Origin: Candidatus Polarisedimenticolia bacterium
Lineage (GTDB): Bacteria > Acidobacteriota > Polarisedimenticolia > Gp22-AA2 > AA152
DNA: 64,000 bases
Direction of reading: 5' to 3'
Assembly (NCBI GenBank): GCA_036004685.1
Contig: DASYRE010000010.1
Location: 1 to 64,000, forward strand
In this document: positions 31,286 to 36,593 of the stretch, piece by piece
Position numbering within the stretch: the first letter of the stretch is position 1
Layout: each line of letters starts with the position of its first letter
The notes under the pieces: generated by a model
What the model saw: the letters and a program-made list of their open reading frames with translations, nothing else
Database searches by the model: none
Told to the model about the DNA's origin: nothing
Position numbers and translations under genes: made by a program

Positions 31286-32596
31286 TTAGAAGGAGGATTC
31301 CTCGCTCATCCTCTCGGCGGCCTGGCGCATCGCGTCCTGGGCCTCCTGCATCGACCGCTCGATCTGACGCTGGATCTCTTGCTGGTTCCGCCGATCGAAC
31401 ATGCCGGCCTGGCGGAGCGCCGCCTGGGCTTCGCGGATCTGCTTCGAGACGTCGATGCTCGAGGCCTGGCGCATCGCGTCCCGGGCCTCCTGCATTGACC
31501 GCTCGATCTGCCGCTGGATCTCTTCCTGACTTCGGCGATCAAGCATGCCGGCCTGACGGAGCGCGGCCTCGGCCGCGCTCATCTGCATGGAGAAGTCGAT
31601 GCTCGAGGCCCGCTCGATCTCGTCGTGGGCCTGGCGGAGCGATTCGAGGACCGACTCCTCGACCTCGGGAGACGCCTCCTCTTCCTCCTCTTTCTCCATC
31701 TCGTGGTCGTGCTCCTCGGGGAGGAACATCGAGCGATGCCGGGGCCGGGAGCGCTCGGCGATCTCGACGTCCACCGTCTTGTCGGATCCGTCGCGGACGA
31801 TCTTCACCGCCACGCGGTCGCCGGGCTCATGATCCGAGAGGGCCTCGGCGATGTCGCCGCGCTCGCTGATCCCTTTGCCGTCAACGGCGATGATGACGTC
31901 GCCGGCGCGCAGTCCCGCCTTGGCCGCCGGCGTGTCCTCCTCGACCCGGCTGACGAGCACTCCGCGGCCCCGCGGCGCCTTGAAGTAGGCGCGCAGATCC
32001 TCCGTCATGCCCTGGACCCGCACGCCCATGAAATTCCGCGACATTCCCAGCATGCCGAAGGGCATCGGCTCCGGTGTCTCGCCCTCCTCGTTCTCGAACC
32101 AGCCGGGTCCGGCGCGCTTGTGGAAGGTGCGCGACCGCGGCGACTCTCCCAGCGTGGCGTTCAGCGTCTTCTCGGAGGATCGGCGCTTGATCCGGATCTG
32201 CACCGAGTCGCCTGGCTCGACATCCCGCATCGCCCGCCGAATGTCCCCCGCGTCGTCGACGTCGTGGCCGTCGAGCTCGAGAATCCGGTCGCCTTCCTGA
32301 AGCCCCGCCTTGGCCGCCGGGCTCCCGTCCTTCACGTCGGTGATCCGGACCCCTCTTCCTTCTTCATCCTCGGAGAGGACCACGCCGAGCCAGGCCCGCC
32401 GAGCCTCGGGGGCGTCCGGAGCGTCCGGCGCCGGAGGCGGACTCGGCTCGCGCGGCGCCGCGGCCGGAGCTGCCGGAACGGGAGGAACGGCGGAGCGGTT
32501 TCCCGCCGTGGAGGCGGGAGAGAGCGACAAGAGCAGGAGCGCCACCAGGCACAACGAAAAGGTCAATATCACGTATTTCAATCGCTTATCCGCCAT
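31286..32596 (-). CDS. two-PDZ-domain membrane-anchored protein with C-terminal repeats
   Basis: The 436-residue protein has an N-terminal hydrophobic anchor or signal (~8-27), a Pro/Ala linker, PDZ domain 1 (~65-150, ending ...GDRILELDGHDV...) and PDZ domain 2 (~185-280, GVLVSRVEEDTPAAKAGL, GDVIIAVDGKG). No protease triad is visible, so it is not a DegP-type enzyme. The C-terminal ~130 residues carry ~2.5 copies of a 48-residue helical repeat (ALRQAGM...IQRQIERSMQEA). ATG at 32596 has a GGAGG site. It may be a periplasmic adaptor; partner unknown. Confidence 0.75.
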   Translation of the reverse strand: MADKRLKYVILTFSLCLVALLLLSLSPASTAGNRSAVPPVPAAPAAAPREPSPPPAPDAPDAPEARRAWLGVVLSEDEEGRGVRITDVKDGSPAAKAGLQEGDRILELDGHDVDDAGDIRRAMRDVEPGDSVQIRIKRRSSEKTLNATLGESPRSRTFHKRAGPGWFENEEGETPEPMPFGMLGMSRNFMGVRVQGMTEDLRAYFKAPRGRGVLVSRVEEDTPAAKAGLRAGDVIIAVDGKGISERGDIAEALSDHEPGDRVAVKIVRDGSDKTVDVEIAERSRPRHRSMFLPEEHDHEMEKEEEEEASPEVEESVLESLRQAHDEIERASSIDFSMQMSAAEAALRQAGMLDRRSQEEIQRQIERSMQEARDAMRQASSIDVSKQIREAQAALRQAGMFDRRNQQEIQRQIERSMQEAQDAMRQAAERMSEESSF

Positions 32597-32730
32597 CCTG
32601 CCTCCCTCCGCATCGAGTTTGAAGACCCTGGGGGGACGAGTCCGTCGACCCGCCTTACGTCCTATATGACTAGGATGACGTGAAGAAGGATGAAAAAGTT
32701 CGGCGGCGAATCGGGAGAAGCGGCGGCCGC

Positions 32731-32767
32731 TGGTGCCGGAGGTCGGAGTCGAACCGACATGGGGTTG
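32731..32767 (-). repeat. 37-bp copy of the tRNA-Leu 3' end (candidate att site)
   Basis: These 37 bases are identical and in the same orientation to 35621-35657, which cover the CCA end, acceptor 3' strand, T arm and part of the variable loop of tRNA-Leu(CAA). Identity stops abruptly on both sides. No 5' half of a tRNA is present here, so this is a fragment and not a second gene. With the intact tRNA it brackets the kinase gene, the arrangement left by site-specific integration at a tRNA 3' end. Confidence 0.85.
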
Positions 32768-32815
32768 AACCTCGACCCAGCAGTGGATTCGAGAAGGAGT
32801 GATGAATCGACAACT

Positions 32816-35512
32816 TCACCGATTCGCGGCGATCCTCTTCAGCTCCTCCGCCCAGTTCAGGACGACGTCCAGCTGGTTCATCGGCCCCTGGGGCTCGACC
32901 TGCTGGATGCGCAGGAACCGGCGTCCGTCGGCCGAGACGTCGTAGGCGGTGTTGACATTACCGCTCGGCCGGTAGCGCCCTTCCATCAGCACGCGCGGCT
33001 CTCCCGTGGAGAAGGCCGCCCCGGGCCGCACCGCCGCCGCCATGAGCTTGTCGTAGCTGAGATTGAGATAGAAGATCTCCCGCCCGTCGCGGGACCAGCG
33101 GGGCTCGCTGCCGCCGCCGTTCGACACTTGCACCCGCGGTCCAGGACCGGGAAAGGGCTGGACGTAGACTTCCAGCCGGCCGGAGCCGTTCCAGTTGAAG
33201 GCCAGCCATTTGCCGTCGGGCGAGACTTGCCCGTCGGCCACACGTCCCGGGGCCTGGACCACGGGACGCGGGGTCCTCTCCCCGGTCAGGGGAAGGGCCC
33301 ACAGCGTCGTGCTCGTAGACCCGCGGAGGCCCATTTCGGAGAAGATCGCCCAGCGGCCGTCGGAGGTGACCGAGGTCGGCGTCTGGAGGATCCCTTCCTT
33401 CTCGGTGAGCCACTCCTCCTCTCCCGTGCCGTCGGCCGCCTTCCAGCACAGGTTCCTCCGGCCTTTGCGCGTGGCGCGGTAGATGATCCGCTGTCCGTCC
33501 AGGGTCCAGACCGGGGCTTGGCTGCTGCCGGCAGTGAGGAACGGCAAGAGGGTGCGGCGCGAGAAATCGTAGATCCAGAGATGGACCGTCCCTTCCGTCG
33601 TCTGCAGGACTGCGCGGCTCCCGTCCGGGGAGATTGCCACGCTCTCATAGTCGCGCTCGGGCAACGGAAGAACTTCCGTCCTTCCCGAGCGGTCGACCCA
33701 GAGGACGCGTTGCGCATACCACCGGGCTCCGCCCGGCACGTACACGAGCGTCCCGTTGCGGGAAACGGCATACATGGCGGCACTCTCGCCCACCTCGCGG
33801 GGGTGCTCCGGGAGGGTGAGCGGCACCACGCCCGCGAGATCTTTCGTCTCCGGCCCCCAGGGAACCGCGAGAAGGTCGTCCATGCGGGCGTACATGAGAA
33901 ATCCGGAATCCAGGTACCGAGGCGTGTTTGCCCCGCGCAGGAGGGTGCGCCGCTCACCCGTCGCCAGCGACTGGAACACGATCGCGCGCTCGTCGAGTCC
34001 CGGGCCCGTCCAGATGTTGTAGAGAAGAGCCTGATGCTCGGGCAGGAAACGGGGCCACCGGTGGCTGATTTCGCCCTGGGCCGTATCCTTGCGCGTGACT
34101 TCCGCCGCCGCGCCACCCGTCGCCGGCACCTTCCAGATGCCCGAGGTGCTCACCGGTGCGAAGTAGATGTTGCCGTCCGCGCCCCAGTCCCCGCCCCTCG
34201 GATCGGGAGTGTCGTCGAAGATCACCTGGAGTCCCGCCCCGCTCACCGAGATCTTCTTCACCTTCCCGTCCGCGAAGAAGCCGATCCACTGTCCGTCGGG
34301 CGAGAAGAAGGGGCTGAAGGCGCCTTCCGTGCCGGCGAGCTCGGCCGGCTCGCGCTCGGAGAGCCTGCGCAGGCAGATCCTTTGGGCGCCGTCGCCGCGG
34401 CTGACGTAGGCCAGCGCGGATCCGTCCGGAGATAGGGCGAGCGGCATTAGGGCGGTGCCGACGAGTTGCTCCCCTGGCGGGAGCGCGATCGTCAGATGGA
34501 TCACTCCGCCGTGGGCGGGCGCCGAGGGAGGCGAGAAGACGCGCATGCCGATTACCGTCCCGAGGATCGCGGCGGCCGCGATCGTCGCGGCGAGGGGCAG
34601 ACCGATCGACCGGCGCGGGGAAGAGGGGACGGCGACCGGCGCGGCGGCCGGCTCCTTCTCGTCGAGATCCAGGCGGGCGTCCCCGATGGCGCTCAGGCGC
34701 CGGCGCGGGTCCTTCTCCAGGCACCGGCGCAGCAGGCGCCGCACGGAAGGCGGGAGATCGGGCGGCAGCGCCTGCCAGTCGACGTCTTCCTTCAGGACGT
34801 TGGCGAGGGTGATGGAGATGTCCTCGCCTTCGAAGGCCCTGCGCCCCGTGAGCATCTCGTAGAGCAGGACGCCGAAGGCCCAGATGTCGGCACGGCGGTC
34901 GACCGTCCGGCCCCGGGCCTGTTCCGGCGACATGTAGGCCGCCGTGCCCAGGATCATTCCGGCCACCGTCGCGGCGTGCGTCATCGTCGGCGATCGCGTA
35001 CCATCGATCCCGGCGCCGCCCGCGGCGTCGCTTTCATACGCTTTCGCCAGCCCGAAGTCCAGGACCTTGACCTTTCCGTCGGGCGTCAGCTTGACGTTGG
35101 CGGGCTTCAGGTCGCGGTGGACGATCCCCTTCTCGTGGGCCTCCTCCAGGGCTTCCGCGATCTGGCGGGAGATCGCCAGGGCTTCCTCGATCGCCATCGG
35201 CCCGCGCGCCAGCCGCTGGGCGAGATCCTCTCCTTCGACGAGCTCCAGGACCAGGAACGGGACTCCGTCTCCTTCCTCCAGTCCGTAGATTGCGGCGATG
35301 TTGGGATGATTTAGCGAAGCGAGCACCTGGGCTTCACGCCGGAAGCGGGCCAGGCGGTCGGCGTCGCGCGCCAGTGCGGAGGGAATCACCTTGAGCGCGA
35401 CTTGGCGGCGCAGCCGCGCGTCGGTCGCGCGGTAAACCTCGCCCATGCCTCCGGCGCCGAGCGGAGCGACGATCTCGTAGGGTCCCAAACGCGATCCGGA
35501 CGCCAGGGTCAT
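32816..35512 (-). CDS. transmembrane serine/threonine protein kinase with PD40 beta-propeller
   Basis: The 898-residue protein has an N-terminal Hanks-type kinase (~10-275): glycine loop LGAGGMGEVY, Lys41 in VALKVI, HRDLKPAN with Asp134, DFGLA with Asp152, and MSPEQARG. A single membrane helix follows (~300-325). The C-terminal ~560 residues are TolB/WD40-like PD40 blades (SPDGSALAYVS, SPDGQWIGFF, SPDGKWLAFN). It probably senses an extracytoplasmic cue and phosphorylates cytosolic targets. A -10-like TAGAAT (minus strand) is at 35555-35560. The gene is bracketed by the 37-bp tRNA-Leu duplication, which suggests acquisition by integration. Confidence 0.9.
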   Translation of the reverse strand: MTLASGSRLGPYEIVAPLGAGGMGEVYRATDARLRRQVALKVIPSALARDADRLARFRREAQVLASLNHPNIAAIYGLEEGDGVPFLVLELVEGEDLAQRLARGPMAIEEALAISRQIAEALEEAHEKGIVHRDLKPANVKLTPDGKVKVLDFGLAKAYESDAAGGAGIDGTRSPTMTHAATVAGMILGTAAYMSPEQARGRTVDRRADIWAFGVLLYEMLTGRRAFEGEDISITLANVLKEDVDWQALPPDLPPSVRRLLRRCLEKDPRRRLSAIGDARLDLDEKEPAAAPVAVPSSPRRSIGLPLAATIAAAAILGTVIGMRVFSPPSAPAHGGVIHLTIALPPGEQLVGTALMPLALSPDGSALAYVSRGDGAQRICLRRLSEREPAELAGTEGAFSPFFSPDGQWIGFFADGKVKKISVSGAGLQVIFDDTPDPRGGDWGADGNIYFAPVSTSGIWKVPATGGAAAEVTRKDTAQGEISHRWPRFLPEHQALLYNIWTGPGLDERAIVFQSLATGERRTLLRGANTPRYLDSGFLMYARMDDLLAVPWGPETKDLAGVVPLTLPEHPREVGESAAMYAVSRNGTLVYVPGGARWYAQRVLWVDRSGRTEVLPLPERDYESVAISPDGSRAVLQTTEGTVHLWIYDFSRRTLLPFLTAGSSQAPVWTLDGQRIIYRATRKGRRNLCWKAADGTGEEEWLTEKEGILQTPTSVTSDGRWAIFSEMGLRGSTSTTLWALPLTGERTPRPVVQAPGRVADGQVSPDGKWLAFNWNGSGRLEVYVQPFPGPGPRVQVSNGGGSEPRWSRDGREIFYLNLSYDKLMAAAVRPGAAFSTGEPRVLMEGRYRPSGNVNTAYDVSADGRRFLRIQQVEPQGPMNQLDVVLNWAEELKRIAANR

Positions 35513-35620
35513 TGCGTTCTGGATTTCCCGTGGGGGTGTGCGCGAATCGGGCCGATTCTACTCTGGGTGGACCACGGGAGGGAAATCGGCAGAGGCAATT
35601 GTGTAAACGTTTGAAGGCAT

Positions 35621-35706
35621 TGGTGCCGGAGGTCGGAGTCGAACCGACATGGGGTTGCCCCCGCGGGATTTTGAGTCCCGTGCGTCTGCCATTTCGCCAC
35701 TCCGGC
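35621..35706 (-). tRNA. tRNA-Leu (anticodon CAA)
   Basis: The minus-strand sequence folds as a class II tRNA. The acceptor stem is GCCGGAG/CTCCGGC, followed by discriminator A and an encoded CCA. The anticodon stem is CGGGA/TCCCG with loop CTCAAAA (anticodon CAA, decoding UUG), and the T arm is GTCGG-TTCGACT-CCGAC. The long variable arm fits leucine. Its 3' 37 bases (35621-35657) are duplicated at 32731-32767. Confidence 0.95.
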
Positions 35707-35792: not shown

Positions 35793-36593
35793 ATGCATCG
35801 AGGCAGGTCATCGATTTTCAAGCTCGCTGCGGGAGTCCTGCTCATCGTGGGAAGCGGAAGCGCCGGCGCTCCGGCATTCGCCGTCGGCGACTTCATCGGA
35901 TTCGAGCCCCAGTACTGGAGCCAAAGGATGGAGGGGACGTGGCGGATCGACGGCGACCTGGTCGAGGGGACGAAGGTCGACCCGCATGAGGCGCTGGGTC
36001 TCGAGGAAACGGACAAGCTGGCGGCCGGGCGGATCTGGCTCCATTGGCTCAAGAAGAACTCCCTGATCTACACGACCTACGACAGCCGCCGGGAGGGGAA
36101 CAAGCTCCTGACTTCGCCAGTGATCTTCGACGACCAGGTCTTCCTGCCGGGAGAGCAGGTGAAGACCCGGCTCCAGACCGAGCTGAAGTCGCTGCTCTAC
36201 GGTTACGACTTCCTGAGCCTCCGTCTGATCAAGCTGGGATTCCGGATCGGAGCAAACCGGCTCGGCGTCGATGCGACGCTCGACTCCGCCACGACGCCCT
36301 CCCGCGCCTCGATCGACGAAAGCGTGACCTATCCCGTGGCCGGGCTGGGGGTGGCTTTCGAACCCATACCGATGCTCCGATTCCTTGGGGAAATCAACGG
36401 GATCGGCGGCCACTTCAGCGGCAACCAAGTGACTTTCTACGACGCGCGGATCCAGGCCGAGGTGTACTGGTCGCACTTCTTCGGCATCATCACCGGCTAC
36501 CGGCGGGTGCGGATCGACGTCGATCTGGAGGACTTCGGGGCCGCCGACGCGACGCAGAAGGGGCCGTACGCCGGGTTCGTGTTCCGATTCTGA
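35793..36593 (+). CDS. predicted outer-membrane beta-barrel protein
   Basis: The 266-residue product has a signal peptide (~1-32, cleavage near AFA-VG) and then alternating amphipathic strands ending in aromatic residues (YAGFVFRF at the C-terminus), typical of small outer-membrane barrels. ATG at 35793 has GGAGG at 35782-35786. A TATATT at 35769-35774 is too close to the ribosome site to be a confident promoter. Function unknown. It lies between tRNA-Leu (opposite strand) and carD. Confidence 0.6.
   Translation: MHRGRSSIFKLAAGVLLIVGSGSAGAPAFAVGDFIGFEPQYWSQRMEGTWRIDGDLVEGTKVDPHEALGLEETDKLAAGRIWLHWLKKNSLIYTTYDSRREGNKLLTSPVIFDDQVFLPGEQVKTRLQTELKSLLYGYDFLSLRLIKLGFRIGANRLGVDATLDSATTPSRASIDESVTYPVAGLGVAFEPIPMLRFLGEINGIGGHFSGNQVTFYDARIQAEVYWSHFFGIITGYRRVRIDVDLEDFGAADATQKGPYAGFVFRF

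Follow-up and report, generated by a model that had tools for sequence, protein, structure and literature searches.

In the 64-kb window, which is the whole stretch of DNA analyzed here, a segment carrying a single kinase-propeller gene has been inserted at the 3′ end of a tRNA-Leu(CAA) gene, and both the insertion and its exact ends were resolved. The arrangement points very strongly to site-specific insertion as the underlying mechanism. Overall, the best reading, and a probable one, is that the segment is a CIME-like single-gene element that lacks an integrase and was mobilized by a recombinase provided in trans. A non-autonomous unit served by such a recombinase is favored because the segment holds one intact gene, its ends are clean, and similar units recur in the class.

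The original prediction of a perfect, same-orientation 37-bp duplication of the tRNA-Leu(CAA) 3′ end with abrupt edges was borne out by repeat search and ARAGORN (Table 1). The two copies agree at 37 of 37 nt, and identity stops at once on both sides; the repeat spans the 3′ half of the variable arm, the T arm, the 3′ strand of the acceptor stem, and the CCA end. No other exact repeat of at least 25 bp was found in the window, and the 37-mer forms the sole pair in the 3.84-Mb genome, with no third copy even when up to 3 mismatches were allowed; it is therefore not a common repeat, and chance is excluded as the source of the pair. The copies are separated by 2,853 bp, of which one 898-aa kinase-propeller ORF occupies 2,697 bp (94%), in agreement with the predicted single gene and missing integrase; the remaining 108 bp and 48 bp leave no room for a recombinase. 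Along the direction of the tRNA, the intact tRNA comes first, then the kinase, the displaced 3′ fragment, and the PDZ gene; this is the canonical arrangement for insertion at a tRNA 3′ end. The GC content of the segment (0.684 versus 0.67) gives no compositional sign of foreign origin. A search for a sigma-70-type promoter inside the segment found none; the kinase, located close behind the tRNA and oriented in the same direction, could be read from the tRNA promoter. The PDZ-protein gene itself holds a 144-bp tandem duplication with 86% identity (window positions 31319-31606).

Table 1. Features of the tRNA-Leu(CAA) insertion locus, in window coordinates
Feature	Coordinates	Strand	Evidence
Gene for a protein with two PDZ domains; directly follows the tRNA in the empty site	31286..32596	-	Pfam PF13180; synteny
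Ancestral downstream flank of the tRNA	32597..32730	.	Alignments: homologous to the stretch directly after the tRNA in G002
attR-like copy, displaced tRNA 3′ fragment	32731..32767	-	Exact repeat, unique pair in the genome
48-bp spacer, kinase stop to fragment copy	32768..32815	.	Hairpin folding at chance level (z 0.02)
Gene for an 898-aa Ser/Thr kinase, PD40 beta-propeller at its C terminus; sole cargo; same direction as the tRNA	32816..35512	-	ORF, Pfam, tree
108-bp spacer, tRNA 3′ end to kinase start	35513..35620	.	Alignment: not homologous with the flank of the empty site
attL-like copy, last 37 nt of the tRNA to CCA	35621..35657	-	Exact direct repeat, unique pair in the genome
tRNA-Leu(CAA), intact, insertion target	35621..35706	-	ARAGORN; same tRNA and same 5′-side neighbors in G001-G003
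Conserved ORF on the tRNA 5′ side	35793..36593	+	tblastn synteny in G001-G003; no Pfam family

The source genome (G000) was compared with three relatives from the same family (four family genomes in total), namely G001, G002, and G003, the latter two matching records QHVQ01000079.1 and JAKEFJ010000274.1. An uninterrupted tRNA-Leu/PDZ-gene junction with one copy of the 37-mer, which had been proposed as the arrangement to look for in close relatives, is present in G002, where the kinase is absent and the PDZ gene adjoins the tRNA. The gene order in G002 is that of the window: PDZ gene, tRNA-Leu, 5′-side ORF, a small conserved ORF (CarD-like by eye, without a Pfam match), and an NFACT-like gene (also assigned by eye). 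Moreover, alignment matches the DNA immediately following the tRNA in G002 to the window's flank beyond the fragment copy; the DNA that follows the tRNA in the window gives no such match. This empty site with its homologous outer flank supports the interpretation of the duplicated tRNA end as a mark of insertion. None of these three relatives, which lack this kinase at the site, carries both copies; each has a single one, with the G003 contig ending 0.9 kb behind the tRNA. At the same point, G001 has an ADOP permease gene (TIGR03434, 2.9e-296) and G003 a BNR-type ORF running to the contig end. A search for a decayed second tRNA copy in these two genomes gave local alignment scores of 19 and 18, respectively, within the range of shuffled sequences. 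Thus, different genes have entered the spot after tRNA-Leu(CAA), all pointing the same way as the tRNA, and a duplication accompanies only the insertion in the window among the sequences of G000, G001, and G003 compared, the last of which is represented by a short contig.

Under the proposed mechanism, a 2.9-kb DNA circle bearing a kinase-propeller gene as its only gene, along with a duplicate of the tRNA-Leu(CAA) 3′ end, would have recombined site-specifically with the chromosomal tRNA-Leu(CAA). The incoming 3′-end copy would restore the tRNA, and the original 3′ end would be displaced to the far side of the insert (position 32731). Since the unit has no recombinase of its own, the reaction would have been catalyzed in trans by a tyrosine integrase whose gene lay elsewhere in the cell or in the donor, and the unit would already have been this small when it was inserted.

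The cargo kinase matches PF00069 (3e-52) and PF07676 (PD40, 1e-21) and is one of a large group, with ~30 related kinases in the source genome. Its closest homolog among 60 relatives comes from another family of the class (G030, 66% amino acid identity), followed by kinases of G024 and G033 (53%), whereas kinases from its own family and own order reach only ~37-44% (~42% for the same-family genomes). In the phylogenetic tree, the window kinase is sister to the G030 kinase (support 100/92), with those of G033 and G024 next. This distribution fits gain of the kinase by transfer; differential loss within a large family is the alternative account. The best homolog (G030 C64) is not located beside a tRNA, and no tRNAs were found near the other kinase paralogs of the source genome in the flanks examined.

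Several integrases are encoded in the source genome, and none of its PF00589 matches lies on the contig of the window (C10); none of these integrases is known to act on tRNA-Leu(CAA), and no integrase specific for that tRNA was found in this genome. At tRNA-Lys(TTT) on contig C8, a phage-like island of 14.3 kb encodes its own tyrosine integrase and is marked by a duplication of 49 bp (L103 3768-18176); in the relative G002, tRNA-Lys(TTT) occurs twice, once on each of two contigs. Directly behind tRNA-Leu(CAG) on C48 lies a gene for a 393-aa tyrosine integrase (713-1986, L122), in an element that runs off the contig. On C25, a tRNA-Thr(CGT) 3′ fragment adjoins an integrase (65942-65965, L125), and the tRNA-Thr(CGT) gene itself is on C52 (L126 6141-6215); the two are probably the ends of one element. 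An integron integrase gene on C60 (6530-12177, L124; TIGR02249, 365 bits) is split, with its C-terminal part ~4.3 kb from the rest and other genes in between. Outside the source genome, no locus with a second copy was found in other species among GTDB contigs, and viral contigs yielded no exact 25-mer of a putative attP. Phage and plasmid matches to the tRNA end were mostly 86-93% identical or short, many of those in phages being annotated tRNA-Leu genes.

Screening for tRNA-Leu 3′ ends led to comparable structures at a different isoacceptor, tRNA-Leu(UAA), in other members of the class. In G024, two additional 3′ fragments lie behind this tRNA; one of the fragments is decayed, and a single MFS gene separates the two. 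No integrase was seen at this locus. Arrays were found in G030, G015, and G036, in which each site consists of a hairpin (GGGAAAGGGCRACGAATC, loop, GATTCGYCGCCCTTTCC) followed by the 3′ half of tRNA-Leu(UAA), from the anticodon loop to CCA. Sites are located at G030:C59 (L191 6137-18045), G036:C12 (L193, L194), and G015:C57/C42/C11 (L306, L307, L192), with further arrays or single copies at G014:C245 (L310), G004:C55 (L190 9393-9524), and G005:C82 (L311). The hairpin regions of the arrays fold far better than shuffled sequences (z -3.4 to -5.1), and compensatory changes occur at 16 of 29 consensus pairs, a signal to which the T arm itself contributes part. Across 297 Acidobacteriota genomes, a covariance model of the site scored above 65 bits in this class exclusively (G030, G015, G004, G014, and G005), and top scores outside it did not exceed ~60 bits, the level of ordinary tRNA-Leu genes; this census is a lower bound, given its strict filters and the position of G036 outside the sample. 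The hairpin site was also sought in viral contigs, plasmids, and phages, with nothing convincing found. Contig G004:C55 additionally contains a diverged repeat that starts with GGTGCCGGGGGCCCG and includes CACACTATTA, in three copies 6-7 kb apart (L190 5464, 12763, 19211).

The length of the units between array sites ranges from 1.1 to 3.3 kb in G030, G015, and G014 and reaches ~6.6 kb in G036. Among the one-gene units, PD40 proteins are encoded by one in G015 and one in G014, a GT87 protein by another in G015, and a lone 918-aa kinase-propeller protein by a unit on G030 C59 with 2,938 bp between sites. Other units hold toxin-antitoxin pairs, and those of G036 include RND-type efflux and PerR/KatG-like genes (assigned by eye). 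Gene calls in the relatives are ORF picks, partly checked against Pfam; most of the genomes are drafts, in which a number of contigs end near array sites. No tyrosine recombinase matches were found on G030 C59 or G036 C12, and no integrase was found in the modules examined. Elsewhere in G030, a 367-aa tyrosine integrase is encoded right behind an intact tRNA-Leu(UAA) on C42 (687-1992, L312), and a second, 90% identical to it, lies behind another tRNA-Leu(UAA) 3′ half on C72 (L314 4555-5830). The cell that harbors these integrase-less units therefore also encodes an enzyme likely to use this target, and the G030 integrases are candidates for the array enzyme. IntI-like integron integrases, carried by G015, G024, and G036, were also considered for this role and set aside: an attC scan of the relatives' loci and of G000 C60 detected attC-like sites at G024 C2, which differ in look from the array sites, and none at the arrays.

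The window site differs from the array sites in two respects. It lacks the hairpin, the fold of its 48-bp spacer being at chance level against the strong folds of the arrays, and G000 has no site-level score in the census; in addition, its repeat begins within the tRNA-Leu(CAA) variable arm, while that of the arrays begins in the tRNA-Leu(UAA) anticodon loop. For these reasons, the window unit is described as working like the class arrays and not as a member of them.

Two origins had been envisaged originally, a very small cassette or a larger island decayed to its cargo. The two are inseparable in the source genome alone, and the one-gene modules of the class relatives favor the small cassette. 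Decay, the main rival, would mean that a larger integrase-bearing island at the tRNA lost everything except the kinase and the two att sites. This is the textbook origin of a CIME (PMC5704250), and integrase-bearing islands do exist at other tRNAs of the source genome. However, the segment contains no relic of other genes beside its intact kinase ORF, and the att copies are still 100% identical, suggesting a young event with little time for decay. Loss from a larger island is thus a rather unlikely explanation, albeit one that deserves serious consideration. Much less probable is an origin without any site-specific enzyme, in which a DNA fragment bearing a piece of tRNA-Leu beside a kinase joined the tRNA 3′ end by homologous or illegitimate recombination. 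The different gene at this spot in G001, without a detectable duplication, indicates that insertion here is not always marked by one. Nevertheless, the repeat of the window begins inside the tRNA gene and ends exactly at its 3′ end, as for targets of tyrosine integrases, and 37 bp is short for homologous recombination. Finally, an artificial joining of unrelated contigs at a short repeat, conceivable for a genome in 62 contigs with the repeat at both joins, is extremely improbable, since it would need two false joins at the same 37-mer, the k-mers used in assembly are usually longer than 37, and both outer sides are syntenic with a single contig of G002.

An integrase-less unit mobilized in trans, the preferred reading, has counterparts among known systems. 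Several observations weigh against this reading: among the integrases of the source genome none with the matching tRNA specificity was found, the hairpin of the class arrays is missing, the best kinase homolog sits away from any tRNA, the GC content is ordinary, and the family comparison covers four genomes. CIMEs retain attL and attR and have no integration or transfer genes (PMC5704250). The window unit likewise has attL- and attR-like ends (the 37-nt repeat together with the empty site in G002) at a tRNA 3′ end, and contains the kinase ORF alone, without integration or transfer genes. It differs in consisting of one gene in 2.9 kb, with mobilization only predicted; no partner element was found in tandem at its tRNA, where the PDZ gene comes directly after the fragment. 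Integrase-less islands are a kind already known from Dehalococcoides, in which 15 ssrA genomic islands lack integration modules (PMC3146451). Those islands also use repeated 3′ ends of an RNA gene as module boundaries and form tandem arrays, but their target is tmRNA instead of tRNA-Leu, their repeat is 20 bp, and a serine recombinase has been proposed (PMC3146451); the arrays described here have, in addition, a conserved hairpin. Like the tDNA islands recognized by Islander, the window segment has a regenerated tRNA and, downstream of it, a displaced 3′ fragment in the same orientation, at a length above the 2-kb limit (PMC4383910). Islander, however, demands an integrase gene inside the island (PMC4383910), so the window segment would be filtered out, and integrase-less units are likely under-reported. 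With integron cassettes, the units share one gene per unit, a recombination site at the unit ends, and, in the class arrays, toxin-antitoxin cargo; the boundary here is a tRNA 3′ end and not attC, and the array contigs carry no IntI.

A more speculative proposal, which at present appears unlikely to hold in full, is a gene-cassette system of the class in which tRNA-Leu 3′ ends take the place of attC. Tyrosine integrases specific for tRNA-Leu would act in trans on non-autonomous units of one or a few genes, each ending in a tRNA-Leu 3′ half (preceded by the conserved hairpin in most arrays); they would capture these units, stack them in arrays, and exchange them between families. The kinase unit of the window would be a simple single-copy case at another isoacceptor.

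Integrative elements are usually recognized by their integrase, and the present findings suggest that one-gene units without one can escape standard island finders. Taken with the arrays in relatives, the 2.9-kb unit and its one signaling gene suggest that integration targeted to tRNAs can spread genes singly. Such integration is also a possible route for the spread of the very large kinase-propeller families of Acidobacteriota.
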